Below, one piece after another: positions 16,816 through 39,081 of a stretch of DNA of 52,325 nucleotides. The notes under the pieces were generated by a model. The model was given only the letters and a program-made list of their open reading frames with translations, did not search any database and was not told the origin of the DNA. The stretch covers positions 1-52,325 of the forward strand of contig NZ_FUGE01000208.1 of assembly GCF_900162825.1 (NCBI RefSeq), in the 5' to 3' direction. This DNA is from Psychrobacter piechaudii (lineage in GTDB: Bacteria; Pseudomonadota; Gammaproteobacteria; Pseudomonadales; Moraxellaceae). Position 1 is the stretch's first letter; each line of letters begins with the position of its first letter. A program made the translations under genes and the position numbers.

Positions 16816-16891
16816 GGGTGATTAGCTCAGTTGGTAGAGCGTCTGCCTTACACGCAGAATGTCGGCAGTTCGAGCCTGTCATCACCCACCA
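16816..16891 (+). tRNA. tRNA-Val (TAC anticodon)
   Basis: Acceptor stem GGGTGAT pairs with ATCACCC; the D-arm has AGCTCAGTTGGTAGAGC; the anticodon loop CTTACAC gives anticodon TAC (reads GUA); the T-arm has GTTCGAGC; CCA is encoded at 16889-16891. Identical in sequence to the copy at 24079. Confidence 0.97.
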
Positions 16892-16931
16892 CTATTTTTA
16901 GAGAGTGGTTAAATATTCTAAAGCGACCTAA

Positions 16932-17008
16932 GCAGCGGTAGTTCAGTTGGTTAGAATACCGGCCTGTCACGCCGGGGGTCGCGGGTTCGAGTCCCGTCCG
17001 CTGCGCCA
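16932..17008 (+). tRNA. tRNA-Asp (GTC anticodon)
   Basis: Acceptor stem GCAGCGG pairs with CCGCTGC; anticodon loop CTGTCAC gives GTC; T-loop GTTCGAG; discriminator G and encoded CCA at 17006-17008. Identical to the copy at 24194 and 40 bp after tRNA-Val, so co-transcribed. Confidence 0.97.
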
Positions 17009-24078: not shown

Positions 24079-24154
24079 GGGTGATTAGCTCAGTTGGTAG
24101 AGCGTCTGCCTTACACGCAGAATGTCGGCAGTTCGAGCCTGTCATCACCCACCA
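24079..24154 (+). tRNA. tRNA-Val (TAC anticodon), second copy
   Basis: Same 76 bases as the gene at 16816: GGGTGAT/ATCACCC acceptor stem, anticodon TAC, encoded CCA. Confidence 0.97.
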
Positions 24155-24193
24155 CTACTTTAGAAAGTGGTTAAATATTCTAAAGCGACCTAA

Positions 24194-24270
24194 GCAGCGG
24201 TAGTTCAGTTGGTTAGAATACCGGCCTGTCACGCCGGGGGTCGCGGGTTCGAGTCCCGTCCGCTGCGCCA
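24194..24270 (+). tRNA. tRNA-Asp (GTC anticodon), second copy
   Basis: Same 77 bases as the gene at 16932: GCAGCGG/CCGCTGC acceptor stem, anticodon GTC, encoded CCA at 24268-24270. Confidence 0.97.
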
Positions 24271-24449: not shown

Positions 24450-24849
24450 ACCTAGTCTAGAGAATTGTTATTAATCAATTCTAATTACTAGTTAAGACAA
24501 TCTACGGTGACCAATTGCATTGTGACCAAATGGTGACCATTTTGTGACCTTATTAATATACAAGGGAAGATGAATCCACTAGCCAAGATTTAGTCTCATT
24601 CTTTCCCTAGGTCTATATTTTTACGAAACATAGAGTTATCTTATTTTCACACTTTACACTCTTGCTTTTTTTCCATAAATTAGAAACGTCATTAAGTGTC
24701 GCTTACAACCAATACCACTATTGTATTATTTCTTAGTTCAAGTAATATTAACTTTGTTGAAATCTATATTAACAAGAAGATGCAAACAAAGATGTGTCCA
24801 AGATAATATCGTTTTCTCCAACTTAAAAATATATACAAGGAGAATCATC
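24450..24849. other. Region between tRNA operon 2 and the island
   Basis: 400 bp, AT-rich. An open frame from 24721 leads into the first island gene, but the 43 codons before 24850 have no RBS and poor coding character, so they are treated as leader. It probably contains the island promoter; I see no clear consensus pair. Confidence 0.5.
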
Positions 24850-25881
24850 ATGATTGAAATTAGTATCGACGGTAATGCAGCAGAAGGTACTGCAGGTAGA
24901 ATCAAATATGAAGCCTACAAATACTTCAAAGACAATAAAATTAGTATGAAGGATTATGCGCATCAAATTGAAAATGATTCCTGGCTTTCTGAAGAAGAAA
25001 AAATAGTAATACCTGAAGAGTTTGACTTCGGTGCAGATGGTCTACATGAGTGTTATGATCTATGGAGCTACGGTGGTCCACGCCTTGATGATGAAAGCTA
25101 TATGACAGTGCTGGATGATGATTCGGAAACTCTATGGGAAAGCAATTTAGATCTTGAAGTACTAAAAAATGCTGGCGTTACTCTTATCAAAAAAAAATCA
25201 TCTGATGATGTTTTAGCAAGTCTTGAGCCTGGTGAAGCCGCTGTCTATGGTTCGAGGTATGAAGAAGGAAATGTTTTTAAAGCAGAAGTAGAAGAAGCCA
25301 TTGATTTCGACCCTTCAAAACTGACTATCTATTATCATGAGGATGATGAGGGTGTATGTTATGCATCAGAGATTATCTATGAAGACTTCGATGTAAGTAA
25401 TGACTGGGGTGGCGGAACAGTTTGGGGAAGCTTTTACTCACTTTTTGCTAATGAAGCCGATGAAACGAATAAAACAGATGACTCATCTACCTCGACTGCT
25501 TTAGATAATGAAAACTCTGTTGAAATTACCGAACCTTCCATGGTTATTCGTATCAGCCAAGCTTATCGCGAAGATGTGACTCCTCAAGAGCTTTATGACG
25601 TAACACGTAGTGCTTGGAAAGTTAACTTAGACCGAGCCAATACTATCGATTATGCTTTTGCTGTATATAAGGGCGAAATTAAAGAAGTCTATAAAGTAGC
25701 GGGATGGCACGAAGCAGGCACAACTTTTGTACCCGTACGAGAAGATATTATTGGTTCTGGTCGCTTTGAGTTCGTTGGGACAGTTGCTGAAGACGCTATT
25801 AGAGACAAATATCTTAATAAGTCAGTCAAACACATGTTCAAGAAAGGTGCGGTTATTCCTACCATGTATGTTAACTGCTAG
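24850..25881 (+). CDS. Unknown protein with shared 119-residue C-terminal domain (family member 1)
   Basis: A 343-residue protein from the ATG at 24850, which has AAGGAG 8 bases upstream; the longer frame from 24721 lacks an RBS. Residues 1-205 are acidic and I do not recognise them (they begin MIEISIDGNAAEGTAGRIKY). After a Thr/Asp/Ser linker, residues 225-343 form the domain shared with the next two genes: EITEPSMVIRIS, TRSAWKVNLDRA, EVYKVAGWHEAGTTF, SGRFEFVGTVAED, then a C-terminal MYVNC. No signal peptide or membrane segment is seen, so a cytoplasmic location is expected. The N-terminal domain may be the specific sensor or effector part and the shared domain the common module (inference). 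Confidence 0.75.
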   Translation: MIEISIDGNAAEGTAGRIKYEAYKYFKDNKISMKDYAHQIENDSWLSEEEKIVIPEEFDFGADGLHECYDLWSYGGPRLDDESYMTVLDDDSETLWESNLDLEVLKNAGVTLIKKKSSDDVLASLEPGEAAVYGSRYEEGNVFKAEVEEAIDFDPSKLTIYYHEDDEGVCYASEIIYEDFDVSNDWGGGTVWGSFYSLFANEADETNKTDDSSTSTALDNENSVEITEPSMVIRISQAYREDVTPQELYDVTRSAWKVNLDRANTIDYAFAVYKGEIKEVYKVAGWHEAGTTFVPVREDIIGSGRFEFVGTVAEDAIRDKYLNKSVKHMFKKGAVIPTMYVNC

Positions 25882-25973
25882 AAATAAGACAGTTAAAGTC
25901 TGAAAGCACTCAACATTGGATGAGTGCTTTCTATGCTGAAAATAACATAGACTATATAAAAGGTGATGAAATA

Positions 25974-27836
25974 ATGACTAATAATAAAAACGCTGAACCT
26001 TGGATGCAAGAGCTTTGGAACCTAGCTGATAAATTCCAAATATCTGATGATGTTATTCCTCGCGATGCAGTAGCTTTAGAACAACTAAATGAGTTAAAAC
26101 TAGAAGATCTAGACGCTGAGGCCTTTGAACTAATTAAGTTAATCTCAAAACTACCCAATCTAAAAATTCTCGACTTAAGTGGTTATAGAGGCGAATATCT
26201 ACCAGATGAGATTGCGGAACTAACCTCTCTCGAACAGCTAATATTAAAATATTCGTCACTAGAGAGCCTACCTAATAAAATCTACGAGCTAAAAAATTTA
26301 TCCGTTCTGAGTTTAACCGAAAACTATGAACTTGATTCTCTGCCTGAGGGTATCTCTAGGCTTAAGAGTCTTAAGTCCATAGATCTATCTGCGTGTGATG
26401 AGCTTCAAGGTTTTCCAGACGGTTTTTTTCAACTTACGCAGTTAGAGGAGCTACTACTTGATAGTACTGAGCTTTACTCAGATGAAATAGGTTCATTAAA
26501 GAAATTGAAAAAGCTATCTCTTTCAGGAGATCTATACGAAATTCCTGTCTGGATATTCGATTTAAAAGAACTTACTGAGCTGTGTTTAAATGAGGTAGCC
26601 CTATCAGAGATACCTTCAGAAATTGGTGAGCTCACAAAGTTAGAGTATTTAGACTTAGGATTCAACGAACGTATAACTAAGCTACCTGACAGCTTCGGTA
26701 ACTTAACCAATCTAAAGCACCTCTCGCTAACTTGCTGTAGCTTACAAAGCCTCCCAGAAAGCTTTGTTAATTTAACCCAGTTAGAAAAGCTAGAGCTAGG
26801 TCCTAGCGACATGAACACCTTAGAACACCTATCACCAGAGGTCAGTAAATTCCTAACTCAGCTGGGTGATGTGGTTACTGGATGGGAACCTAGTACCGAT
26901 GAGCAACATAATACCAAAGCTGATGATAATCAGCCTCAGGTACCCGATGATGTCAAAGATTATGTTGACCTAAATGACATAGATAGTGACGCGCTAGTAC
27001 AACAGGTAATAGATACTTTAGATCAAATTATAGATAGTAATAAAGCACGCATACAGGAAGGAGACTTCGAAGTAAGACCAGGCTATGGTTATGATAAATT
27101 TTATTTAGACTGGATCGATGGGTCTTATGATATGAGCCTTCAAAGCCTGATTCATTATATTATGTATGAAGATGGTATCTATAATAAGATATTAAACACC
27201 AGTCAATATACAAGAATTTTGCACCTCATTGATGACAATCCTGAGGCGATTTTTAGTGCTGATGAATCTCTCGATGACAACTACAGCCTATTACAGTACG
27301 AATTCTTAGATAATCTCTTCTATAACCCCATTCAGTTTGTAGGCAAAAGGCTGAGCGAATTAGGTTGTGATGTATCACAAGCATTTGCTGATTACCTAGA
27401 AGATGACTTTTACGATGAAGACTACGAATCAGAAACTGAAGATGACTCATCCAATATAGCTACTTATGACTCTTTTGAAATAACGGAACCTGCGCTGATT
27501 ATTCGTATCAATCTAGAAGACTCAGACAATATTAGTGCGCAAGACCTGTACAACACTACTCGCAGTGCATGGAGAATTAATCTAGAGCGTGCGAATAACG
27601 TAGAGTATGTATTATCAGTTCACCAAGGTATTGTAAAGGAGGTCTATAAAGTATCTGGGTGGTATGATGCGGGAACTACTTTTATGCCAAAACGTGAAGA
27701 CATTATAGGTTCTGGGCGCTATGAATTCGTTGGGACAGTAGCTGAAGATGCTATTAGAGATAAGTATCTGAATGCATCGGTTAAGCATTTGTTTAAAAAA
27801 GGAAATGCCCAGCCTGTCATGTACTTTAACTGCTAG
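25974..27836 (+). CDS. Leucine-rich-repeat protein with the shared C-terminal domain (family member 2)
   Basis: A 620-residue protein from the ATG at 25974, which has AAGGTGATG upstream; an earlier in-frame ATG at 25920 lacks an RBS. It starts MTNNKNAEPWMQELWNLADK. Residues about 60-290 hold roughly ten bacterial LRR units of 21-24 residues (for example LKILDLSGYRGEYLPDEIAE, LEYLDLGFNERITKLPDSFG). Residues 320-490 are acidic and unrecognised. Residues 502-620 are the shared domain, from EITEPALIIRIN to MYFNC. It follows member 1 by 92 bp and precedes member 3 by 42 bp. LRR proteins bind other proteins; a sensor or target-binding role is inference. A decayed paralogue lies at 17626. Confidence 0.82.
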   Translation: MTNNKNAEPWMQELWNLADKFQISDDVIPRDAVALEQLNELKLEDLDAEAFELIKLISKLPNLKILDLSGYRGEYLPDEIAELTSLEQLILKYSSLESLPNKIYELKNLSVLSLTENYELDSLPEGISRLKSLKSIDLSACDELQGFPDGFFQLTQLEELLLDSTELYSDEIGSLKKLKKLSLSGDLYEIPVWIFDLKELTELCLNEVALSEIPSEIGELTKLEYLDLGFNERITKLPDSFGNLTNLKHLSLTCCSLQSLPESFVNLTQLEKLELGPSDMNTLEHLSPEVSKFLTQLGDVVTGWEPSTDEQHNTKADDNQPQVPDDVKDYVDLNDIDSDALVQQVIDTLDQIIDSNKARIQEGDFEVRPGYGYDKFYLDWIDGSYDMSLQSLIHYIMYEDGIYNKILNTSQYTRILHLIDDNPEAIFSADESLDDNYSLLQYEFLDNLFYNPIQFVGKRLSELGCDVSQAFADYLEDDFYDEDYESETEDDSSNIATYDSFEITEPALIIRINLEDSDNISAQDLYNTTRSAWRINLERANNVEYVLSVHQGIVKEVYKVSGWYDAGTTFMPKREDIIGSGRYEFVGTVAEDAIRDKYLNASVKHLFKKGNAQPVMYFNC

Positions 27837-27878
27837 GCTAGCAAATCCACTGTTTACACTCAAAAAAAGGAGGTTTCT

Positions 27879-28439
27879 ATGTCTAGTCTTTTTTCAAAAA
27901 TTGCGGGCATCTTTGGCAAGTCAGAACCTAAAGAGGAGTCTAGCCAACACACAGCGCCAGAAGCTACCACAGCCAATGATGCTGTAAAAGCTGAGCCACT
28001 AACTGCATCGGACAATATTGATGATACTGATGATGTGAATATTGAAAATAGCGGCGACTCGGAAAATATAGATAATTTAGATATCACAGAGCCTGCTCTA
28101 CTGATTCGTATTAGCCGTGCTTATGATACAAATATGACTGAGCAAGAGCTATACGACATTACTCGTAGTAGCTGGAAGGTAAATTACGATCGTGTAAAAA
28201 ATGTAGAGTACGCATTTTCGATCTATCAAGGTCAGATATTAGAAGTATATAAGGTTGCAGGCTGGTATGGTGCAGGCACCACCTTCGCTGAACGTAATGA
28301 AGACGCCTTAGCCTCTGGTCGATTTGAATTTGTTGGTACTATTGCTGAGGATAGTGTGAGAGATAAGTACATTAATAAGTCAGCAAAACACCTGTTCAAG
28401 CCAGGTAACGCATCCCCCGTTATGTATTTGAACTGCTAA
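27879..28439 (+). CDS. Small protein with the shared C-terminal domain (family member 3)
   Basis: A 186-residue protein with an ideal RBS (AAGGAGG, 6 bases before the ATG). Residues 1-67 are a short MSSLFSKIAGIFGKSEPKEE start and an acidic, probably disordered linker. Residues 68-186 are the shared domain: DITEPALLIRISRAY, TRSSWKVNYDR, EVYKVAGWYGAGTTF, SGRFEFVGTIAED, ending MYLNC. It is therefore close to a minimal version of the module. Probably last gene of a three-gene operon, followed by a strong terminator. Confidence 0.8.
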   Translation: MSSLFSKIAGIFGKSEPKEESSQHTAPEATTANDAVKAEPLTASDNIDDTDDVNIENSGDSENIDNLDITEPALLIRISRAYDTNMTEQELYDITRSSWKVNYDRVKNVEYAFSIYQGQILEVYKVAGWYGAGTTFAERNEDALASGRFEFVGTIAEDSVRDKYINKSAKHLFKPGNASPVMYLNC

Positions 28440-28484
28440 ACGCTTATACCTTCATAGGTTTAAAAAATTAGCGTATGACTTGTT

Positions 28485-28526
28485 AAAACTAAAGCCCCAC
28501 ATAATTAGATGTGGGGCTTTAGTTTT
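28485..28526. terminator. Bidirectional terminator between convergent genes
   Basis: An 18-bp perfect stem, centred on AAAGCCCCACAT / ATGTGGGGCTTT, with a 6-base loop and A/T tails on both sides. It separates the plus-strand three-gene family from the minus-strand nuclease/helicase gene. Confidence 0.92.
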
Positions 28527-31500
28527 TATAAATTGGCAACCTGCATAACAGCATTATATAAATTAACCTTTCTCAACTGCTCTACACTGTTAGCCGCAGT
28601 GTCTCCTAAATCAGGCGAGCCAACCACTATAGCTAGTATCTGCGCTCGGGATAGTGCGACATTCAATCGGTTTTTATTAAATAAAAAATCAATGCCACGA
28701 GGCGATTCATTAGCATCACTTGCACACATACTTAAAAAGACAATTGGCGCTTCTTGACCTTGAAACTTATCAACACTTCCTACCCTAGCATCTGGTCCCA
28801 ATGCAGCTTTTAATTTACTGACTTGATGGTTATATGGAGCGACAAATAGCATATCGCTCCAACCAATTGAACGTATGACTGGCAAACCTTCTGCTGTCAT
28901 TTCACCTGTAGCAAATTGTCTAGCCAGCATCTTATTAGCCATGTCTACAATTACCGCAACCTCTTCATCAGAGGCTTGTGTGTTGCCTTGATGCTCTACA
29001 GGCATAAAGACTATACCGGCATGAATATGATCAATATCGGCTAATCTATCATTAGTCCGCTGAGTGGGTGGCAGAAGGTATCTATTATCATTATCAGCAT
29101 TTGATCTTAGTTTGCCTGCATAGATATTCGAGCTTATGAAGTCATTTACCTTGCTGTGCATACGGTAGGTCGTATCTAAAAAGACACCCATATCTGCATC
29201 AATTGTTGGTGTGTCATGCAACATATAATCAAGTACAGACAAACCGCTTTCAGCAGGGTGCGTACCTTGCGAGGGCTGTCCTAATTGCATCTGGTCGCCC
29301 ATCAATACTAAGTTTTTAGCACATCTGCTCATCGCTACTAGGTTAGCTGTAGATACCTGCCCTGCCTCATCAATAAATAGATAGTCAAAACCGCCACTTA
29401 GCTCATCACGGCAAAAGCCCCATGCGGTCGTACCAAATACGCAAGGGCCCACTAGGCTATCAAAAATCTGATTATTTTCTATTTGATTAATATCGAAGCG
29501 TTTAAACTCATCATCCGTCTCTCTAGAGCAATAAAAGCTTGCGACAATCCCTTGTTGCTGACAATACTTGGCGGTACTTAGTAATAAGTTGTTAATGGCT
29601 TTATGGCTATTGCTTGAAATGCCAACCTTTGAGCCATCTCTTAATAGCTCTGCAATCACTCGTGAGCCTGTGTAAGTTTTACCTGCCCCAGGTGGACCTT
29701 GAATCGTAAGGTAGCTGTTATCGAGCCGCTTAACGATATCTATTACCTGATTTAGCCGAATCTCTGGATTATCTGCTGTAATAAGATCTCCGCCGCTATG
29801 ACCTTTGATACGAGGGTGGCTCCGTAGTAGAAAGTCTATTACTGCACTCTTTCGAGTAGACAGCCTACCTTGCTCATAATCACTGATTATCTGAGCCAAA
29901 GCCTGCTCTACTACTTTAGTTGGTACAAACTCGTCGGGTATCAAGGTGATAAGTCTTGGTGGCTCTACTCCTGATTTGACAACGATAATCCCATTATCTA
30001 AATCGCTGTCTTTAGCATCCAACTCCACCTTGACAGGACTGCCCTGATCACACACCACACCTAATAGATAGAAACTCCCGTTTGAACCTTTGAATTCTTG
30101 TTGTGTATTAAACCGATATTCATAACTAAGATTTCTTGCTCTTGGCGTTGATTTAAAAGGCTCACGTTCTGTACGCTCGCATAATGCCAAACAGTCCAAA
30201 TCATCAAAAAGCTCTGTTTCATCTGCTCCTAAGCGATCAAACAGTCGCCAATACATAGGTTTTAACTCACGGCGATGAAACTCCAGCATCCACGCTAAGT
30301 TTTCAGTGAGTCTTGCTTTTGCTTCATCCTGCGTCTTTTGTTTAGATGCTTGCTCTAGCAACCTATCTCGCAGCTTAATAAGCTCTGTAACTTCTTCTGA
30401 GGGCTCAGGCTCAACCGTATCAGTATCAGTTTTGCCTAAATAGCTGATGTTATGCGCTGCTTGCTGTTCTCGCAACCAGTCTACGAGCTCTTGTGTGGAA
30501 TTACAGTCATCAATGTTATAGTCGCGAATGCTATTTAAAATCTCGGACGTCTGCCATGTATCACCCTCGTCTCCAGTGCTATTTAAGGAGCGCCAGTTTT
30601 CATACACCACAATGGAGTCACCACCAGAGCCTACTTCTGTATCTCGTTTATCACGATACAGTAGCTCCACATTTTTTATAGAGTATCGCGGCTCTCCAAT
30701 TCTTATACCACCTTTCACAACCTTGTATAGGTCGACAAACACTTCATTTCTAAGCAGTTGATCGACTTCATGTTCACATACCCCATAACGACCCATCAAT
30801 TTACGGCACGCAGTAATCTCATAGCTGGCATAATGGTAGATATGCATACTCGGATCTTGTAACCACCGAGCATATACCCAGTTTATAAAGTCCTGAAAAC
30901 ACTGTTTTTCTTGTTCTGGGTTATGTGCCCAAAAGTCTTTAAACTGTCTATTTCCTTGCTCATCAAAATAGGTATTGCCCCATAAGTATTCTAGCCCGCC
31001 CTCATCAAGCGGATACCCCTCTATATCAAAGAACACGTCCATCGGTGAATGCGGCGGTAATAATGCAAGCCCTATCTTTTCACCTTCCTCATGCCTCAGT
31101 ACTTCAAACTCAGGTCTTACACTTATCTGCGAAGACTCTTTGTTTTGTGTAGCTTGCTCAAGCTTCTCTCGGCTTTTTAGCTGTATCGAGGCTTGCTGCT
31201 TTAGTCTGTCTAGAACACTTGGCTGAATATCTTTGATATGGGTTAATTGTGTTTGCGCTAGTTGCTTGAGCGTATATACCCCTGCATTATTGAGCTTTTT
31301 GATCTGCGATCTTGTGATATTAGCGACTTGGAATAAGTGGTCTTTCTCAAGCAATAGCTGCTGTGCATAACCAGACCAATTGCCCCAACTGCTTGAATCA
31401 GCCGGATCTGGTTGGTTATTGGGATTGAAGCTCTGGTGGAAGTCTAAAAACTTACGTTTTAGATTTAGGTAGTAGCAATAGAACTCATTAACTCTAAAAT

Positions 31501-32050
31501 GTTCTATCTGCCCATTACCCAAAGCGACTTTAATATAGGTAGGCAGCACGCCCTGTATCGACTCAAGCATTTGGGCATAGCAGCACAGCTGTACAATGAA
31601 TGTTGGCTTAACCTGACTTGCCAGCTTGGTATCCCAAATCTCATAATGCCAATTTCCTAAGCGACTTGGCGCCTCGCCAGCTTGATGCTCTACTTTGACC
31701 AAGAAATCGGCATAACCTGCAAACTGATCCTTCTCAAGCCTTGCCTGAAAAATAACCTCAAAGCCCTCCTGCATAGCAGCAATCGTTTGAGCGTACCTCT
31801 CATGTTGACTTGCAGTATCATCAATAACCTTTAAATGTTTACCTTGATCAATAAAGAACTGCTTGAGTTTATCTTCATGAGCATAGCCTTTGTTTTGTAA
31901 AAAGGTACTTAGCTCATCATCCTCATCTTGCGCAGGCGCTTTGTCGGGGTACTCAAGCTTAAATCGATTCATCCAGGATGCAAAAGGACTTTGCATGAAC
32001 GTCATCAAATCAGACGGAGAAAACTGTATCTGGTTACCATTTCTTCTCAT
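28526..32050 (-). CDS. TM0106-type RecB-like nuclease fused to a Dna2/Upf1-type superfamily 1 helicase
   Basis: An 1174-residue protein. Residues 1-270 form a RecB-family nuclease-like domain (LMTFMQSPFASWMNRFKLEY; YADFLVKVEH; HYEIWDTKLASQVKPTFIVQ, the D..K nuclease core). Residues 330-520 carry an RNase H-like part (DVFFDIEGYPLDEGGLEYLWG; IRDYNIDDCNST). The C-terminal half is an SF1 helicase: GPPGAGKTYTGSRVI (Walker A, near 783), DYLFIDEAGQVS (DEAG box), GDQMQLGQPSQGTHP, DTTYRMHSKVNDFI and VDKFQGQEAPIVFLSMCASD, then NRLNVALSRAQ. Such proteins occur in bacterial defence and repair contexts. It lies 89 bp downstream of the MoaE-like gene on the same strand. Confidence 0.88.
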   Translation of the reverse strand: MRRNGNQIQFSPSDLMTFMQSPFASWMNRFKLEYPDKAPAQDEDDELSTFLQNKGYAHEDKLKQFFIDQGKHLKVIDDTASQHERYAQTIAAMQEGFEVIFQARLEKDQFAGYADFLVKVEHQAGEAPSRLGNWHYEIWDTKLASQVKPTFIVQLCCYAQMLESIQGVLPTYIKVALGNGQIEHFRVNEFYCYYLNLKRKFLDFHQSFNPNNQPDPADSSSWGNWSGYAQQLLLEKDHLFQVANITRSQIKKLNNAGVYTLKQLAQTQLTHIKDIQPSVLDRLKQQASIQLKSREKLEQATQNKESSQISVRPEFEVLRHEEGEKIGLALLPPHSPMDVFFDIEGYPLDEGGLEYLWGNTYFDEQGNRQFKDFWAHNPEQEKQCFQDFINWVYARWLQDPSMHIYHYASYEITACRKLMGRYGVCEHEVDQLLRNEVFVDLYKVVKGGIRIGEPRYSIKNVELLYRDKRDTEVGSGGDSIVVYENWRSLNSTGDEGDTWQTSEILNSIRDYNIDDCNSTQELVDWLREQQAAHNISYLGKTDTDTVEPEPSEEVTELIKLRDRLLEQASKQKTQDEAKARLTENLAWMLEFHRRELKPMYWRLFDRLGADETELFDDLDCLALCERTEREPFKSTPRARNLSYEYRFNTQQEFKGSNGSFYLLGVVCDQGSPVKVELDAKDSDLDNGIIVVKSGVEPPRLITLIPDEFVPTKVVEQALAQIISDYEQGRLSTRKSAVIDFLLRSHPRIKGHSGGDLITADNPEIRLNQVIDIVKRLDNSYLTIQGPPGAGKTYTGSRVIAELLRDGSKVGISSNSHKAINNLLLSTAKYCQQQGIVASFYCSRETDDEFKRFDINQIENNQIFDSLVGPCVFGTTAWGFCRDELSGGFDYLFIDEAGQVSTANLVAMSRCAKNLVLMGDQMQLGQPSQGTHPAESGLSVLDYMLHDTPTIDADMGVFLDTTYRMHSKVNDFISSNIYAGKLRSNADNDNRYLLPPTQRTNDRLADIDHIHAGIVFMPVEHQGNTQASDEEVAVIVDMANKMLARQFATGEMTAEGLPVIRSIGWSDMLFVAPYNHQVSKLKAALGPDARVGSVDKFQGQEAPIVFLSMCASDANESPRGIDFLFNKNRLNVALSRAQILAIVVGSPDLGDTAANSVEQLRKVNLYNAVMQVANL

Positions 32051-32139
32051 AACAATTCCTTTTTACCTTTCTAAAGGGTCCTACCGGTTTTCTGTTATAT
32101 TTTTATTAGGGATTAATTCGGATTATAACCATTACACTA

Positions 32140-32667
32140 TTAACGATTAACTTGTAGCCACTCCGGTACATCCTGTTTATCAAAATCATAACGCCACAAA
32201 CAAAGCTGTTTTTCCAACGTCTCTCTTATCCATTGACTTGCTTCATCAGCAACTTCTTTGGACTCAGCTGTCACACCTACCCATAACCTGATGTCTTCAA
32301 CATCTAAAAAACCTACTCGATGAACCGCGACCACATCCTCTATGGCATACCGCCTCTTAGCTTCGGCTATCACGCCCCAACCTTGATGCGTTACAAAGGT
32401 CGGATATCCATAATAATAGGCAATCTCATTAGGCGGGCAGGATTCAGGCTTAATACTCAGGCTATGAGTTGAGAACGCTTTATCTCCGTGCTTGCCAACC
32501 AAGTTTTGAATAACAGCCGGTTCTATACTCTGCTCTATTAATGCAAACCCAAGCTCTTTAATATGCTGATAAGCCATATCTAAATCATACGGCATAGCAT
32601 TAGGATGTAAATCTGGCTGTGGTGAAGCATCACGTGCAAAGTCAGGCTGGAATGTGAATGTTGGCAT
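32140..32667 (-). CDS. MoaE-like protein with altered catalytic lysines
   Basis: A 175-residue protein. The C-terminal half resembles molybdopterin synthase large subunit MoaE: VVAVHRVGFLDVEDIRLWVG (compare the family I-H-R-x-G-x-L-x-x-x-E), then VTAESKEVADEASQWIRETL. Where E. coli MoaE has LKTRAPFWKRE, this protein has LEKQLCLWRYD, so both lysines considered important for sulfur transfer appear replaced by E and R in a hand alignment. The N-terminal about 70 residues (MPYDLDMAYQHIKELGFALI region) do not match MoaE as I know it. It lies just upstream of the nuclease/helicase gene and probably shares its mRNA. A different, MoaE-derived function is possible. Confidence 0.55.
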   Translation of the reverse strand: MPTFTFQPDFARDASPQPDLHPNAMPYDLDMAYQHIKELGFALIEQSIEPAVIQNLVGKHGDKAFSTHSLSIKPESCPPNEIAYYYGYPTFVTHQGWGVIAEAKRRYAIEDVVAVHRVGFLDVEDIRLWVGVTAESKEVADEASQWIRETLEKQLCLWRYDFDKQDVPEWLQVNR

Positions 32668-32846
32668 GTGGCTACTATACTCAATAAGCTTGGGTAATTA
32701 ACTGGCTATGACTGATTATTACTTATTTAATAGATTATTAGAACAGCTTCATAAAAATTTACGACAGTTAATGTCGCGCACCCCTTTTCATATCTGCTAA
32801 TATTGGTGATAATTGTAATAGGCTCGTATTACGTCTATCCTTTTTT
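32668..32846. other. Intergenic region before the hsdS remnant
   Basis: About 180 bp with the promoter region of the MoaE-like gene on the minus strand and no ORF of note. Sequence just before 32847 (ATTACGTCTATCC) may be more decayed hsdS, but I cannot follow the frame. Confidence 0.4.
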
Positions 32847-32949
32847 GATATAGATGCAGAGATTGAAAGTATTAAAAAACAGGCTAGTGAAAACCAGAGC
32901 CATTAAACAAAGCATGATGCAACAGCTATTAACCGTAAAGTGCGGTTAG
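32847..32949 (+). pseudogene. hsdS: C-terminal remnant of hsdS (type I restriction-modification specificity subunit)
   Basis: One frame reads DIDAEIESIKKQAS from 32847; the next reads LVKTRAIKQSMMQQLLTVKC plus G and TAG at 32947-32949. Joined, these match the HsdS C-terminus, which commonly ends D-x-D-A-E-I-x-x-L...K-T-R-x-I-K-Q-G-M-M-Q-Q-L-L-T-G-K. A frameshift near 32884-32892 separates the two halves. The rest of hsdS and hsdM are absent. The stop lies 24 bp before the first DUF262 gene, the spacing of an operon neighbour. Confidence 0.8.
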
Positions 32950-32973
32950 TGGATTAATTTTATAAGGAATAGT

Positions 32974-34812
32974 ATGCAAGACAATCAATTGGTGATGAAA
33001 CCAATAAGCGATTTATTAGATAATCAGTTTTTTATACCAGCTTATCAGAGGGGCTACCGCTGGACTAAACGTCAAGTAATCGACCTGCTAAATGACCTAA
33101 AAGAGTTTCAACAAAAAGCTAAAAAGCCCGAGTTCTATTGCCTACAACCAATAGTCGTCAAAAAAAATGATGATAAATGGGAGGTTGTAGATGGTCAACA
33201 ACGTTTAACCACAATTTATATTATTTTACATTATCTAGGAGAATTATTTCCTAAGATAATTAAGTCATGCTATCAGTTAAGCTATGAGACAAGAGCAGAT
33301 TCTGAAGCTTTTTTAAAAAACTTAGATGATAATCTTGCAGAAGATAATATTGATTATTTCCATATTAGTAATGCAAAAACAACTATTGAACAATGGTTTG
33401 ACAATGAAGATCCTATGCTACCCTTCAAACTCACTCAAACATTGTTGAATAGTGATGATACAGAAGATCCTAAAGTCAAGTTTATCTGGTATGAGCTGGG
33501 CGAACATGAAAATGCTACCGATGTGTTTACTCGTTTAAACATGGGTAAAATCCCATTGGTTAATGCAGAACTTGTCAAAGCATTATTCCTAAAATCCAGT
33601 AACTTCGAACACAACGTTAATGAGAGTAATGAGAACAAAAGCATCATTGCTGATTTAGAACAAGTAAGGATATCGCAAGAATGGGATTCAATCGAAAAGA
33701 GTCTACAAAATGACGCTTTTTGGTATTTCTTAAGCAAAGATGATAAGAAAGACAATCGTATAGAGTTTGTCTTAGATCTTAGAGCCACACAGCTTGGTTC
33801 CGATCATAATATTATCGCTAGTGACAAGCTTAGAACCTTTTTACAATTCAGTTCATGGCTTGAAAATCACAATGTTAATGTCAGTGATGAATGGCTTGAA
33901 ATTAAAAAAGTATTTATGGTTCTCGAAGAGTGGTTTAACGATCGCTCACTTTATCATTTGATTGGCTATTTGATCCATCAAGGCCACGATATCAAAGATA
34001 TATTCAAAACTAGAGATGACAGTGTCAGTAAAAGTGATTTTAAAACCAAACTCCTTGATAAAATAATCCAACTAGTGTTTTTTGACTCTAAAAATCCCAC
34101 TCAACCTTTTGAAGAACTTGAAAATAGTATCGAGACACTCCTATCCTCTCTCAGTTATGAGACTATTAAACAGCATAATCAGATACGTGGCGTCCTATTG
34201 CTTTTTAATATAGTTAGTTTACTGAACAATCCTAAATCAAATGCGAGATTTCAGTTTGAGCGCTACAAATTAGATAAATGGGATATTGAGCATATTAGGT
34301 CAGTTGCTTCTGATATGCCAAAAACTCAAGATACGCAAAAAAAATGGCTTGAACAAGTTGCTGCTTATATTTCAGACGGCGATGTTATTGAACAAGAAAA
34401 GCACTTATCAGATGAACAGCTTACCGAAGCACAGCTCATCAAAGAACAAGCGACTAGCCTGAATAGAACTTCGTTCAAGTACTCTCAGTTTGAAGAGTTA
34501 TATCAGCGTGTCACCCAGTTTTATAACCCTAATAGTAATGATGAAGTAGATAACTCTATAGGTAATTTAACTTTGCTTGATAGCGGTACCAATCGTAGCT
34601 ATAAGAATGCTATTTTCCCTATTAAAAGAAAAAGCATTATTCAGCTCGATAAACAAGCCACCTATGTCCCTTTATGCACTAAGAATGTGTTCTTAAAGTA
34701 TTACAGCAAAAACGTAGATAAAATGCTGTTTTGGGAAAGCAAAGATAGTTCAGACTATCAACAGGCAATGATAGACACATTTATTGATTTTTTCTGTATC
34801 AAGGGAGCTTAA
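32974..34812 (+). CDS. DUF262/DUF1524 protein, GmrSD-like nuclease (DUF262-A)
   Basis: A 612-residue GmrSD-type protein. The N-terminal DUF262 (ParB-like NTPase) domain shows FFIPAYQRGYRWTKRQVIDL and the signature VDGQQRLTT at about 72-80; VFTRLNMGKIPLVNAELVKA is the second DUF262 motif. The C-terminal DUF1524 HNH-type nuclease has KWDIEHI (about 434) and SIGNLTLLDSGTNRSYKNAI with the histidine and asparagines expected (about 528-548). Type IV enzymes of this family cut phage DNA with modified bases. RBS AAGGA lies 7 bases before the ATG. It is flanked upstream by the hsdS remnant and followed 2 bp later by DUF262-B. Confidence 0.88.
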   Translation: MQDNQLVMKPISDLLDNQFFIPAYQRGYRWTKRQVIDLLNDLKEFQQKAKKPEFYCLQPIVVKKNDDKWEVVDGQQRLTTIYIILHYLGELFPKIIKSCYQLSYETRADSEAFLKNLDDNLAEDNIDYFHISNAKTTIEQWFDNEDPMLPFKLTQTLLNSDDTEDPKVKFIWYELGEHENATDVFTRLNMGKIPLVNAELVKALFLKSSNFEHNVNESNENKSIIADLEQVRISQEWDSIEKSLQNDAFWYFLSKDDKKDNRIEFVLDLRATQLGSDHNIIASDKLRTFLQFSSWLENHNVNVSDEWLEIKKVFMVLEEWFNDRSLYHLIGYLIHQGHDIKDIFKTRDDSVSKSDFKTKLLDKIIQLVFFDSKNPTQPFEELENSIETLLSSLSYETIKQHNQIRGVLLLFNIVSLLNNPKSNARFQFERYKLDKWDIEHIRSVASDMPKTQDTQKKWLEQVAAYISDGDVIEQEKHLSDEQLTEAQLIKEQATSLNRTSFKYSQFEELYQRVTQFYNPNSNDEVDNSIGNLTLLDSGTNRSYKNAIFPIKRKSIIQLDKQATYVPLCTKNVFLKYYSKNVDKMLFWESKDSSDYQQAMIDTFIDFFCIKGA

Positions 34813-34814
34813 TT

Positions 34815-37367
34815 ATGGATAAGGGTAAAAAAATAACTTTTAGTGAATTATTTCAAAGAGTCGAGCGTGTCGAAATCCCAATTATCCAACGTGACTACGC
34901 TCAAGGCAGAGAAGATCAACATGAAGTTAGAAACATGTTTTTAGACGCCCTCTTTACTGCACTCACAACAAATCGTGCCATATCGGATCAATCTTTAGAC
35001 TTAGATTTCATCTATGGAAGTGTAGAGTCTGATAAGTCCTTTTCAGTACTTGATGGGCAACAAAGATTAACGACTTTGTTTTTACTGCATTGGTTTTTGG
35101 CAGTAAAAGAAAGCTATACGTCTGAGTTCAGGAAGCAATTTACACTTAACAACAAGTCTAGATTTAGTTATAAAACCCGCCCAAGCTCAACAGAGTTTTT
35201 TGATGCTTTGACCTCGGATACAGATTTTGAAGAAAAATTCAATCAATCCAAAAGTTCAAATAATTCAAATAATTCAAAGATAAGTGCGCTCATCAGCGAT
35301 TGTAAATGGTTCTTTTCTTCCTGGAAACTAGATCCTACCGTTCAAGCTTGCTTAAATATGCTAGATGCCATTCAAGATAAGTTCTCAAGCTATGATGATG
35401 GGCTATATCAAAGACTCACTGAGACAAAAACGCCTTATATAACCTTTCAGTTTCTACAGTTAGAATCATTCGGTTTAACTGATGATCTATACATTAAAAT
35501 GAATGCTCGAGGTAAGCCTCTTACTGCGTTCGAGCATTTTAAAGCCAAGCTTGAGCAAATTATAAAGTCCTATAAAACCGATTGGCCTATCTATCAATTA
35601 GATATTAAAGGCTTTAATAACACACCGGTAGATGGTTATAGCTACTTCGTTCATAAGATTGATACTGATTGGGCAGACCTATTTTGGCCATATCGAAACT
35701 TAGCTTCAGAAGATAATACTTATGATGATGAGCTAATGAATTTCATTCGTTTGATCATCTTGTATCAATATTTGTTAGATAATAAAGAGGTTAGCAAAGA
35801 TAACTTATCATTATTGATGGGGAGTGGCTCTAAGCTTCTTCCTAGCACAATTTCTCAATATGAAAGCCTGAATTGCTTAAATCAAAACCTCATTATACGT
35901 CTGATTAATCTATTTGATTTACTGCATAACTCTGATGCTGGTCAAGGTATTAGAATATATTGGGGTGAGAATAAATACTTTAACGAATCAGATATTTTCA
36001 AAAAGATTTTAATTAATGACACCAGCTATATTGATAAGCTCAGGTTCTTCGCTTTTTATTCTTATTTATCCAAACACTCATCTGATTTGGATAGCGACAA
36101 GCTATTTCACTGGTCGCGCGTAATATATAATCTGACTGAGAATACAATCGTAGATAGTACAGATGACTTCCATCGTGCATTAACTTCCATTGAGTCCCTC
36201 ATTCATACCAACGACTCAATCTTAGATATTCTTATTTCTCCTATTAATATTACTGGCTTTTTAGGAGATCAAATCCTTGAAGAAAAGATTAAAGCCCACC
36301 TTATATTGAAATCAGATGACTGGAAAAACACAATCCTACATGCTGAAAACCATCCCTTCTTTAAGGGTCAAATAGGTTGTCTACTCAACTTCTCTGATAT
36401 TCTTGAGTATTATCGCAATAATAATGATTGCAATTGGGACACCTCTCAAGATAATGACTTAATGGATAACTTTAAAAAATACGATCGATCTCTAGGTTCT
36501 GTCTTTAACCAAATATCTACTAGCTCTGCAGCCATAGACTATTTATGGGAGAGAGCAACCCTGACTAAAGGTATCTATTTTACTAAAAAGACATGGTATG
36601 ACCGTTACAACTTACTCAGTACGCGACTATTCAAAAACAATATCAATCGTGATCATAGCTGGAAAAGATTGTTACGGATTGGCTCTGAAACAATGGAGAC
36701 AAGACAATCTCACGTAAAAGCTGTTCTAGATGATGCCAATTTTGATGCTGATAATATTAGAGCATCACTACAGAATATTTGTGATGTGGCTTTGGCTAAT
36801 AATGAATTTGATAAATGGCGTGAATATCTCATACGATATCCTCAGATTTTTGAATACTGCGAGCAAGGGTTTATTGAAATTCATAAGATTGAAGCTAATA
36901 AGATAGAAGTCTTATTATTATCACAGTCTCAGCGTAATCATTATCATAGCGAGCTTTACACATTCGTATTAAAGATTCAGCTAAAAGATAAGCTTAAAGA
37001 ACTTCTACCCTTCTCTGATTTAAAATATCAAGAAGTTAAGTCCACTCATGAGCAAGCCTCTCTCAAGATAACAGGTTGGCATTATGCAGGTAATGATTAC
37101 TCGTTTGAAACTATCAAGTCTCCAGGCAACTTCATAGTCCGGTTTAAGAATGACTCCTCAAACGATTACCCTCAAAAAGTTGCGGATGTGCTTGAGAGCA
37201 ATGGGTTTCAGCTTCAACACGCACCTACCCAGGACAAAGATACCAGAGACGAATATACAGACGATGAAACAACGCACTACGAGAATAAGTCATTAACATC
37301 GGTAGATGACGTGATTAGTCAACTCACTCGAACTTGTCATTCATTAAGGGATCTATCACATGAGTAA
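34815..37367 (+). CDS. DUF262 protein without recognisable HNH domain (DUF262-B)
   Basis: An 850-residue protein. The DUF262 domain shows VEIPIIQRDYAQGRED, FIYGSVESDKSFSVLDGQQR followed by LTTLFLLHW, and LYIKMNARGKPLTAFEHFKA. I see no DUF1524 histidine/asparagine motif in the remaining part; residues 700-790 look like a mixed alpha/beta C-terminal domain (ITGWHYAGNDYSFETIKSPG). RBS AAGGGAG overlaps the end of DUF262-A, so the two are tightly coupled and may act together, with A supplying the nuclease. Its stop overlaps the ATG of an hsdR remnant (ATGAGTAA, 37360-37367), showing it was once coupled to hsdR. Confidence 0.85.
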   Translation: MDKGKKITFSELFQRVERVEIPIIQRDYAQGREDQHEVRNMFLDALFTALTTNRAISDQSLDLDFIYGSVESDKSFSVLDGQQRLTTLFLLHWFLAVKESYTSEFRKQFTLNNKSRFSYKTRPSSTEFFDALTSDTDFEEKFNQSKSSNNSNNSKISALISDCKWFFSSWKLDPTVQACLNMLDAIQDKFSSYDDGLYQRLTETKTPYITFQFLQLESFGLTDDLYIKMNARGKPLTAFEHFKAKLEQIIKSYKTDWPIYQLDIKGFNNTPVDGYSYFVHKIDTDWADLFWPYRNLASEDNTYDDELMNFIRLIILYQYLLDNKEVSKDNLSLLMGSGSKLLPSTISQYESLNCLNQNLIIRLINLFDLLHNSDAGQGIRIYWGENKYFNESDIFKKILINDTSYIDKLRFFAFYSYLSKHSSDLDSDKLFHWSRVIYNLTENTIVDSTDDFHRALTSIESLIHTNDSILDILISPINITGFLGDQILEEKIKAHLILKSDDWKNTILHAENHPFFKGQIGCLLNFSDILEYYRNNNDCNWDTSQDNDLMDNFKKYDRSLGSVFNQISTSSAAIDYLWERATLTKGIYFTKKTWYDRYNLLSTRLFKNNINRDHSWKRLLRIGSETMETRQSHVKAVLDDANFDADNIRASLQNICDVALANNEFDKWREYLIRYPQIFEYCEQGFIEIHKIEANKIEVLLLSQSQRNHYHSELYTFVLKIQLKDKLKELLPFSDLKYQEVKSTHEQASLKITGWHYAGNDYSFETIKSPGNFIVRFKNDSSNDYPQKVADVLESNGFQLQHAPTQDKDTRDEYTDDETTHYENKSLTSVDDVISQLTRTCHSLRDLSHE

Positions 37368-37487
37368 CAGCATCTGCATCGAACGACTCACGCAAAAATC
37401 GTGTCGTACGTTTGTTCCGACACACTAGGTTATCGGTATTTAGGTGACTTTAAAGATAGCGTCAATAACAACAGCATCAAAGCATGA
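37360..37487 (+). pseudogene. hsdR: N-terminal remnant of hsdR (type I restriction subunit), frameshifted
   Basis: The ATG overlaps the stop of DUF262-B. The frame reads MSNSICIERLTQKSCRTFV and then, after what looks like a one-base deletion near 37413, the third frame reads SDTLGYRYLGDFKDSVNNNS followed by I. HsdR proteins of one large group begin with E-R-L-T-Q-K-R-V...F-x-D-x-L-G-Y-x-Y-L-G-D-W-x-D-R-x-x-N-x-N-I-E, which matches. Similarity ends near 37475, where the sequence passes into the DUF262/HNH gene in another frame. The motor and nuclease parts of HsdR are gone. Confidence 0.78.
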
Positions 37488-38973
37488 AATCATTAAAGCG
37501 CGTCTGTTGGTAGTAATTAAAAACGCAGCATCATCTGAGCTTAGCTTAGCGGAGTCAGATACAGCAAAGGCCCTTATTCACAATGTGTGGGAGGCCTGCT
37601 CCAATATGAACCAATACGTGCAGTATGGTTTCAATACTACACTACGTAAAAAAATATTCTCAGAAGATCTTACTTGCTTAGTGCCTCAAAACTTTGATGA
37701 TCTACTATCAGTCTATGAACATCACAACCGCTATAAAAGTGAGGAGCATAGCAATGATAACAAGCCAGCCCCTACTCTGCATAACATACTATTTGATAGC
37801 TATTACGATAATCCAATCAACCCTTATGAAACAGCAGACAGTAGGTCAGCAGACGAAAATAGCGATGGGGAAGCCTACTACAGCTTAATCAACTTCTCTA
37901 ACTTCTTGCTTCATGTGTTAAGAATTATGATTAATGAGCAGTCCTCAAGCCGGCAAGATATTGCGCTTGATGATAAGCAACTGCTGGTTCAGTTTGAAGA
38001 CCACATCCTAACTGAGACCAATTTCGATAATGGCAAGCACTTCTCTGTATTATCCCAAGTCAAAGCTTTTATATACTGTTTGCTAAAAATGAAGTTTGTT
38101 TTTGATCACTTCATCATTAAGCGAAATGCTCAAGACAGCAAAGAGCATTGGACTATTAAAAAGCTGACCATGAGCAAAAGCAGTCATTCAGCCTACTACA
38201 AAAACAGCTTTGAGCAAGACAACGATAGCTTAGTCATGCTGCAAAGTGCTTTTCACGTTTCCACTCCAACTATGAACTACAAACACTGGCTCAATGCTGC
38301 TTTATCTTATTTATATACGCACTACAACAACAGTGACTATGAGACAGGGCTAGATAGTCTGTCTTATCTAAAGCATTTAGAAGCTATTGCTCGTGCCTTC
38401 ATGCTAAGACGATATTTGACAGATAATCCTGATGAATACCACCAAATTATCTATCAGACATCAAATCTAAACTCTCTATCTCTAAAACAAGATAAGCACA
38501 ATGTGTACTCAAACGACATGCGCTCACAGATAGAGCATTACCTACGATATGGAAATATTCGTAATATCTTTGTGTTTAACTACTTAGATTATTTGCTATG
38601 GATACGAAACAATAAGCCCAGTTTTACCTTTACGTCTCGTAGTTCAATAGAGCATTTTTACCCTCAAAACAAAAGAGATAAAGACATCTTAATTAATGAA
38701 AAAGACTCACCTGACACATTGCTTCACTCATTTGGCAACTTATGTTTAATCAGTCATAGTCTTAATTCTCGTGTAACTAACGATATGCCTACTGTGAAAG
38801 TAAAATATTTCTTAGATGCCAAACAGATAGACAGCCTGAAGCTCTTTAAAATGATTGATTATATACATGACACAGGTATCAAGTGGGATAAGGACACAAT
38901 CAGACAGCATGGAAACGAGATGGTTGATCTTTTAGTTAATAATTTACAGATAGCTGAACAGGTTTCTTCATAG
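37444..38973 (+). CDS. DUF262-type protein lacking its DUF262 domain, with C-terminal DUF1524/HNH nuclease
   Basis: A 509-residue frame starting with GTG at 37444. It has no DGQQR-type DUF262 motif. Residues 15-100 (ARLLVVIKNAASSELSLAES; VWEACSNMNQYVQYGFNTTL) look like the middle region of DUF262 proteins, and the C-terminus has SRSSIEHFYPQNKRD (about 399) and SFGNLCLISHSLNSRVTN (about 429), the HNH motif of DUF1524. The GTG start lies inside the hsdR remnant, with no clear RBS. The simplest reading is a 5'-truncated gene joined to hsdR debris by deletion; whether it is expressed is uncertain. It is also possible that it now supplies the nuclease to DUF262-B. Confidence 0.65.
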   Translation: MTLKIASITTASKHEIIKARLLVVIKNAASSELSLAESDTAKALIHNVWEACSNMNQYVQYGFNTTLRKKIFSEDLTCLVPQNFDDLLSVYEHHNRYKSEEHSNDNKPAPTLHNILFDSYYDNPINPYETADSRSADENSDGEAYYSLINFSNFLLHVLRIMINEQSSSRQDIALDDKQLLVQFEDHILTETNFDNGKHFSVLSQVKAFIYCLLKMKFVFDHFIIKRNAQDSKEHWTIKKLTMSKSSHSAYYKNSFEQDNDSLVMLQSAFHVSTPTMNYKHWLNAALSYLYTHYNNSDYETGLDSLSYLKHLEAIARAFMLRRYLTDNPDEYHQIIYQTSNLNSLSLKQDKHNVYSNDMRSQIEHYLRYGNIRNIFVFNYLDYLLWIRNNKPSFTFTSRSSIEHFYPQNKRDKDILINEKDSPDTLLHSFGNLCLISHSLNSRVTNDMPTVKVKYFLDAKQIDSLKLFKMIDYIHDTGIKWDKDTIRQHGNEMVDLLVNNLQIAEQVSS

Positions 38974-39039
38974 TTTCTAACTTTGAAAACTTCTAATATA
39001 AGTTATTTTTAAGCTGCACTTTTACTTCATTACTTCAAT

Positions 39040-39081
39040 CTCAGATACGTATTTTTATAAATAGCTATCTGAGGTTTTTTT
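39040..39081 (+). terminator. Terminator of the DUF262 gene cluster
   Basis: CTCAGATA (39040-39047) and TATCTGAG (39066-39073) with an 18-base loop, followed by a run of eight T. About 65 bp after the HNH gene stop; the block just before it (CTAATATAAGTTAT) is also found after the collapsed copy at about 18108. Confidence 0.8.

Follow-up and report, generated by a model that had tools for sequence, protein, structure and literature searches.

Two-protein systems that combine DUF262 domains with defence against phages carrying altered DNA have been described in Vibrio cholerae. GrwAB, from the WASA lineage, requires both of its genes and stops phages with deazaguanine or sugar-modified cytosine, the residues named being R81, H431, N521 and N530 of GrwA and R86 of GrwB (PMC12137116). 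TgvAB, a two-protein DUF262 system of VPI-2, occupies the gap between hsdS and hsdR of a type I operon and acts on T-even phages, with H571 and N602 of TgvB lying 31 residues apart; the accompanying survey of 41,142 genomes counted 1,341 tgvAB pairs and 79 five-gene operons, and named Psychrobacter cryohalolentis among the carriers of the pair (PMC11411939). The gap between hsdS and hsdR also holds the DUF262 gene RloF in Campylobacter jejuni (PMC4619093, PMC11411939), as well as DarTG2 in EPEC, in an account that describes the site as a potential recombination hotspot for defence systems (PMC12255303).

The locus analysed here lies in the window, which is the whole stretch of 52,325 nucleotides from a Psychrobacter piechaudii contig. 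Gene A (32974..34812, forward strand) encodes a GrwA-like protein of 612 aa composed of GmrSD_N (DUF262; Pfam, 5.7e-31) and GmrSD_C (DUF1524, HNH; 9.3e-06). It is followed on the same strand by gene B (34815..37367), encoding a GrwB-like protein of 850 aa, in which Pfam recognises GmrSD_N alone (1.5e-23), followed by a long C-terminal part; GmrSD_C is not matched. GrwAB is built in the same way, its first gene carrying DUF262 and DUF1524 and the adjacent second gene DUF262 with a long C-terminal part, and it likewise has DGQQR in both proteins and the H-N-N residues in the first (PMC12137116). The key residues in the window are R77, H440, N531 and N540 in A and R84 in B; all 66 A and 68 B sequences compared keep DGQQR, and the 66 A sequences also keep H440, N531 and N540. 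The HNH spacing from H to N is 91 in A and 90 in GrwA, while the N-to-N spacing is 9 in both (PMC12137116); in contrast, the H-to-N spacing is 31 in TgvB (PMC11411939) and 28 in C, the truncated third gene of the locus. Because of these residue identities and spacings, A-B is regarded as GrwAB-like and C as TgvB-like, the likeness of A-B being one of domain order, residues and spacing. A-B departs from the gene order of TgvAB, since the DUF262-only gene stands first in TgvAB and the HNH gene first in A-B (PMC11411939).

Domain make-up and fold also connect A with BrxU and SspE (DUF262+DUF1524), which the available descriptions present as single-protein effectors, without a long partner like B. 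The predicted model of A (pLDDT 89.3) matches SspE (Z 15.5-17.1), DndI (Z 16.2) and BrxU (Z 8.5-8.6) at rmsd values of 11.7-17.4 Å. The first part of the B model (pLDDT 90.3) matches SspE and DndI (Z 12.2-14.5, rmsd 9.4-12.1 Å), with the matched span covering the first 480-620 residues (VIA-align), and BrxU weakly (Z 5.1-5.2). Such high rmsd values, 10-17 Å, are as expected for multi-domain proteins. The last ~160 residues of B yielded weak matches in VIA-align (Z below 6), among them the T4 MotA DNA-binding domain, which may serve as a lead at most. Foldseek returned no match for B at E 0.001; a PDB sequence search found SspE weakly with A (E 0.07) and nothing with B or C, and NCBIfam supplied no name for any of the three. 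PADLOC gave partial HEC-06, Orf5 and SspE matches for A, weak matches for B and no match for C.

The pair is positioned between remnants of hsdS and hsdR, as the first-pass annotation had read from the letters of the sequence. Directly before A, a frameshifted hsdS 3' end (32844..32950, forward strand) aligns by blastn with the hsdS 3' end of a Psychrobacter relative, G006 (76% identical, 108 columns, E 1.8e-14). On the other side, a frameshifted hsdR 5' end of ~41 codons (37360..37476, forward strand) aligns over 37360-37471 with the hsdR 5' end of another, G053 (77% identical, 114 columns, E 2.5e-17). The overlap of B with this second ghost, also claimed at first pass, is exact: ATGAGTAA stands at 37360-37367, where the B stop overlaps the ghost start, and ATGAGTAA is the hsdR opening in the intact operons of G053 and G006 too. 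Chance similarity was rejected, since the best bit scores (hsdS ghost 71.6, hsdR ghost 81.5) far exceed the maxima of 500 dinucleotide shuffles per flank (30.1 and 28.3), with the control pieces also speaking against it. By our own reading of the alignment with relatives, the hsdS ghost contains three indels and the hsdR ghost two, that is ~5 per ~218 ghost bases versus zero frame breaks across the 4392 bases of A and B, so that the cargo is intact, as had been stated.

The hsdR ghost breaks at about codon 41 and runs directly into a third open frame, gene C (37477..38973, forward strand), which the first-pass annotation overlooked while being right about the ghosts, the gene order, the loss and the intact cargo. 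C is listed as an open frame from a GTG at 37444 (37444-38973), a start that lies inside the hsdR ghost. It corresponds to a TgvB-like DUF262+DUF1524 gene reduced to its C-terminal two thirds, as judged from Pfam, where GmrSD_C is present and GmrSD_N absent, and from protein similarity, with residue 12-13 of C falling at about residue 230 of DUF262+DUF1524 proteins of ~750 aa. With GmrSD_C alone, C does not have the DUF262 and DUF1524 domains of TgvB and is a remnant of such a gene. The junction near 37477 contains a few bases compatible with both parents, hsdR and the TgvB-like gene.

The remainder of the type I system is missing from the own genome, a draft of 300 contigs with completeness 100. 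Profile searches found neither HSDR_N (0/1) nor Methylase_S (0/1), in keeping with the earlier claim that hsdM and most of hsdS and hsdR are gone; N6_Mtase gave two matches, both under the curated cut-off. Judged by the presence of hsdR, hsdM and hsdS, this draft genome does not qualify as a type I carrier, and the two profile results led to the rejection of a type I system elsewhere in the assembly.

The intact arrangement is directly observed in relatives. In a set of 105 Psychrobacter genomes, the HsdR family (74% identity or more, whole or in pieces) was found in 12. A complete, intact hsdM-hsdS-A-B-hsdR operon is present in G036, which is the operon that the first-pass annotation had proposed to look for. 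The same order occurs over two contigs in G040 and with hsdM in two frames in G053, and a decaying copy in G100 holds A-B in an operon with broken hsd genes, all of which bears out the view of the pair as an in-operon accessory. Other genomes carry other cargo 5' of hsdR: D-C' pairs in G006 and G021, C' without D in G050, where hsdR is broken, a short C' in G071, D2-C2 in G013, E-D2-C2 in G045 and G098, and E alone in G078 (C21). GmrSD_N was found by Pfam in all six cargo proteins tested, and GmrSD_C in the two of C type. E is a further DUF262 type of ~610 aa with GmrSD_N only (L101:10481-12307, L104:7491-9326, L092), which precedes D2-C2 or fills the hsd slot by itself, and in one case stands close to an HsdR of a different family. 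All 11 testable loci of the HsdR family have a DUF262 gene no more than 1.5 kb from hsdR, a count that leaves aside the untestable L082, an inner piece of G050; near hsdR of other, more distant families, such a gene was seen in 1/18 returned loci.

The backbone beneath this varied cargo is nearly constant. Between G053, which carries A-B, and G021, which carries D-C', HsdR identity is 97%; in six genomes the HsdR identity to G021 is 94-97%, and all seven proteins are mutually 93-98% identical. These seven near-identical-HsdR genomes hold five cargo sets in four gene layouts, namely A-B in two forms (their A proteins 53% identical), D-C', D2-C2 and E-D2-C2. With five DUF262 sets under HsdR proteins that are 93-98% identical, the cargo has therefore been swapped beneath one backbone. 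Over its first 600 bases, hsdR shows 87-92% identity among G053, G036, G021 and G013. The 300 bases 5' of hsdR are 22-24% identical between A-B and D-C', D2-C2 or E-D2-C2 carriers, and 91% identical when one A-B form is compared with the other. At the 3' end of hsdS, identity over the last 240 bases is only 45-71% among carriers of A-B, D-C', D2-C2 and E-D2-C2, so a homology arm is less clear on that side. We infer that cargo is exchanged through recombination in the hsd flanks. The window itself is 86% identical to G053 in A and 70% in B, with DNA identity declining along B.

From this anatomy, A-B is probably a GrwAB-type two-protein modification-dependent (type IV) system that was once cargo in a type I operon and, after the loss of the operon, stayed on independently of Hsd. 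A-B would formerly have ridden in a type I restriction-modification operon, in the gap separating hsdS from hsdR; this host operon would then have been lost, with hsdM and nearly all of hsdS gone, and hsdR, cut at about codon 41, would have become fused to a second, TgvB-like cargo gene near codon 230 of the latter, of which C would be what remains. This order of events in the window lineage we infer from the remnants, and the pair would have been retained as being functional without Hsd. The DUF262 domains of A and B may jointly bind nucleotide and recognise modified phage DNA (e.g. sugar-modified cytosine or deazaguanine), which the HNH domain of A would cut, B acting as a needed partner without a recognised nuclease domain. 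By analogy, the target is probably modified phage DNA of the same class as that of GrwAB and TgvAB, and the second layer against modified phage DNA suggested at first pass would fit the published relatives.

A different route to the same anatomy is offered by the surroundings of the locus, a variable segment of 14.5 kb between tRNA-Asp and EamA (24573..39069) that is absent or different in the relatives G039 and G038. The pair may have arrived at the tRNA-Asp site already excised from an operon elsewhere, the ghosts being passengers of a mobile cassette with no local operon, and A-B would still work. The closest relatives by EamA, G038 (97% identical) and G039 (91%), both lack A-B: in G039 tRNA-Asp and EamA are adjacent with no insert, and G038 has a different insert at the site, with a tRNA-Asp 3' piece at its far end. 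The shortness of the hsd remains, which are ends only, and the free exchange of cargo within the genus would also suit such a transfer. However, the segment contains no recognisable integrase (Pfam matches nothing in 24721-25880), and local decay of an operon requires fewer steps, which makes arrival as a cassette rather unlikely.

The segment and its vicinity have other features. The tRNA-Val/tRNA-Asp pair is duplicated (16816-17008 and 24079-24270), the copies lying 7 kb apart and being 98.9% identical over 375 bases with their surroundings. A leucine-rich-repeat protein of 638 aa is encoded at 25920-27836 (forward strand), and a protein of 1174 aa at 28526-32050 (reverse strand) combines a TM0106-type RecB-like nuclease with an SF1 helicase part and shows partial PADLOC similarity to MkoA; the latter is perhaps a further defence gene of the segment. 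At 32140-32667 (reverse strand), a MoaE-like protein of 175 aa is 27-32% identical to MoaE proteins of the genus, with matches in 103/105 genomes, none of them close.

Returning to the reading of A-B as retained cargo of a lost operon, pairs left behind in this way also occur in relatives. A-B without hsd genes but with Hsd ghosts at a border is found in G034, G057 and G093, and D-C' in the same condition in G023, G094 and G099; ghosts also adjoin D-C' in G048, where the pair is broken, and C' in G035, where it lies close to the end of a contig. Among eight Psychrobacter A-B-type loci outside an hsd operon, four have ghosts (the window, G034, G057 and G093), and in the other four none was found (G078 C6, G024, where B is partial, G001 and G077). 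G034 and G057 have the spacer and the hsdS ghost in common, so their operon loss predates their split, and omega between them is 0.175 for A and 0.199 for B; G023 and G099 have an hsdR ghost in common, with omega 0.126 for D and 0.187 for C'. The one-sided binomial p values for A, B, D and C' are 6.7e-11, 5.6e-12, 6.3e-10 and 8.5e-24, respectively. Leftover cargo is under purifying selection (omega 0.13-0.20) in these two pairs of relatives with older operon loss, a measurement that applies to them and not to the window lineage. The cargo therefore works without Hsd, in agreement with the independent value proposed at first pass, and survival of a DUF262 pair after operon loss has, according to the relatives, happened more than once.

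It could still be that A, B and C are neither expressed nor selected in this strain and are open only through recent loss. Promoter-like sites before A show no excess (3 versus a shuffle mean of 2.4), a terminator-like hairpin (32926-32952) lies immediately 5' of A, C is truncated, and copies decay in G048 and G100; the C' of G048 is split between two frames, showing that decay does affect some leftover pairs, and C' of G094 versus G099 has omega 0.368, on 10 changes only. Such plain decay is nevertheless improbable, as the ghosts gathered indels while A and B remained without a frame break and selection acts on the leftover pairs of two sets of relatives.

Little probability is likewise given to a three-part system, in which C, despite having lost DUF262, would be kept as a separate HNH subunit partnering A-B. 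The frame of C stays open for 1494 bases and keeps the H and N residues, though the adjoining hsdR piece has indels, and GmrS and GmrD are known as separate proteins (PMC4619093). Against this, A already carries an HNH domain, C begins at a GTG inside the hsdR ghost, a form seen in no relative, and dS between C and C' is saturated, which precludes an estimate of selection on C. That A-B stood guard over the type I enzyme as PrrC watches over EcoPrrI (PMC12707154), acting only when a phage disables Hsd and useless without it, is suggested by its seat inside hsd operons in relatives, but is very improbable given that purifying selection persists there after operon loss and that tgvAB protects E. 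coli without type I genes, albeit 10- to 100-fold less against several phages (PMC11411939). That omega of A after loss (0.175) stays close to its value inside operons (0.153, G053 versus G040) speaks for a complementary layer that is independent, and not for one that relies on Hsd.

Beyond the genus, the retained-cargo reading was compared with named loci, the best 80 of 313 with B relatives (alignment query), which include six Psychrobacter contigs also in the genus set. Within these best 80 of 313, an A-like gene lies directly 5' of B in 79/80, and 15/80 loci, several of them from Bacteroidota, lie between hsdS and hsdR with <=3 genes between, nine having none between; in L212, full-length hsdR similarity directly follows B. 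Border ghosts were found in 6/61 of the best-80 loci with no or incomplete hsd genes (L169, L170, L175, L180, L181, L187), and those outside Psychrobacter come from Alteromonas (L187, both sides), Acinetobacter (L181, hsdR side, E 1.7e-5) and a MAG (L180, hsdS side). In the control of 1017 pieces of 700 bases, same-strand matches appeared in 9 for HsdS and 9 for HsdR, all from loci scored as having real hsd genes. A tree of 69 B proteins, built by a quick method and unrooted, so that the direction of change is not given, requires 12 switches between the embedded and the non-embedded state, no fewer than 10 when judged by its starred branches; 28/500 shuffles were equally low, so the embedded label is at best weakly clustered. 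To thin near relatives, 9/76 and 8/73 loci were removed by hand from alignments A4 and A5 without a measured rule, for which reason L170 and L175, both with ghosts, are missing from the tree. No Vibrio is among the best 80 of 313 named loci. Scanning named genomes with only B as query produced 8 pattern matches, tblastn finding no relative, a class-wide draw found relatives in 2/369 genomes besides the own genome, too few to use, and 17 plasmid records hold B relatives, all below 60% identity.

One locus departs from the hsd setting. In Psychrobacter sp. I-STPA10 (L057:8460-19842), an A-B pair, 58% (A) and 52% (B) identical to that of the window, follows sspB-sspC-sspD, with sspA divergent (PADLOC), in what we take to be the usual place of SspE in an Ssp locus. 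It is the only locus with Ssp genes among the best 80 of 313, where the same contig appears as L173.

Tentatively, the gap between hsdS and hsdR may be a standing exchange site for modification-dependent restriction genes, in which the backbone stays constant while DUF262 modules are swapped by recombination in the flanks. Such a locus would combine one activity restricting unmodified DNA with another, changeable one directed at modified DNA, and its modules would regularly outlive the backbone and be able to dock on other modification systems, such as the SspE place of the Ssp locus. The Psychrobacter set, with one backbone, five cargo sets and several leftovers, makes the ideas of complementary layers and of a swap site directly testable, and provides a natural experiment on why defence genes embed in one another.

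Compared with the described systems, A-B combines the composition of one with the position of others. GrwAB lies in a VSP-II variant beside a Shedu gene, whereas A-B lies between hsdS and hsdR remnants (PMC12137116). TgvAB occupies the same type I slot (PMC11411939); the D-C' pair of the genus is similar to it, and so is the remnant C. RloF shares the slot as well, the available accounts mentioning no second DUF262 gene (PMC4619093, PMC11411939), and DarTG2 sits there too but is a toxin-antitoxin system and not DUF262 (PMC12255303). DUF262 genes in the hsdS-hsdR gap are thus already known from RloF and TgvAB, and the arrangement described at first pass, though real, is not new as to the type of gene in the slot. 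None of the papers listed in the literature searches pointed to Psychrobacter carrying ghosts of hsd genes or to type I operons that contain GrwAB pairs. Apparently new here are the GrwAB-like pair in a type I slot, the exchange of cargo on a near-constant backbone, the repeated survival of cargo after operon loss and the copy in the SspE place of an Ssp locus.
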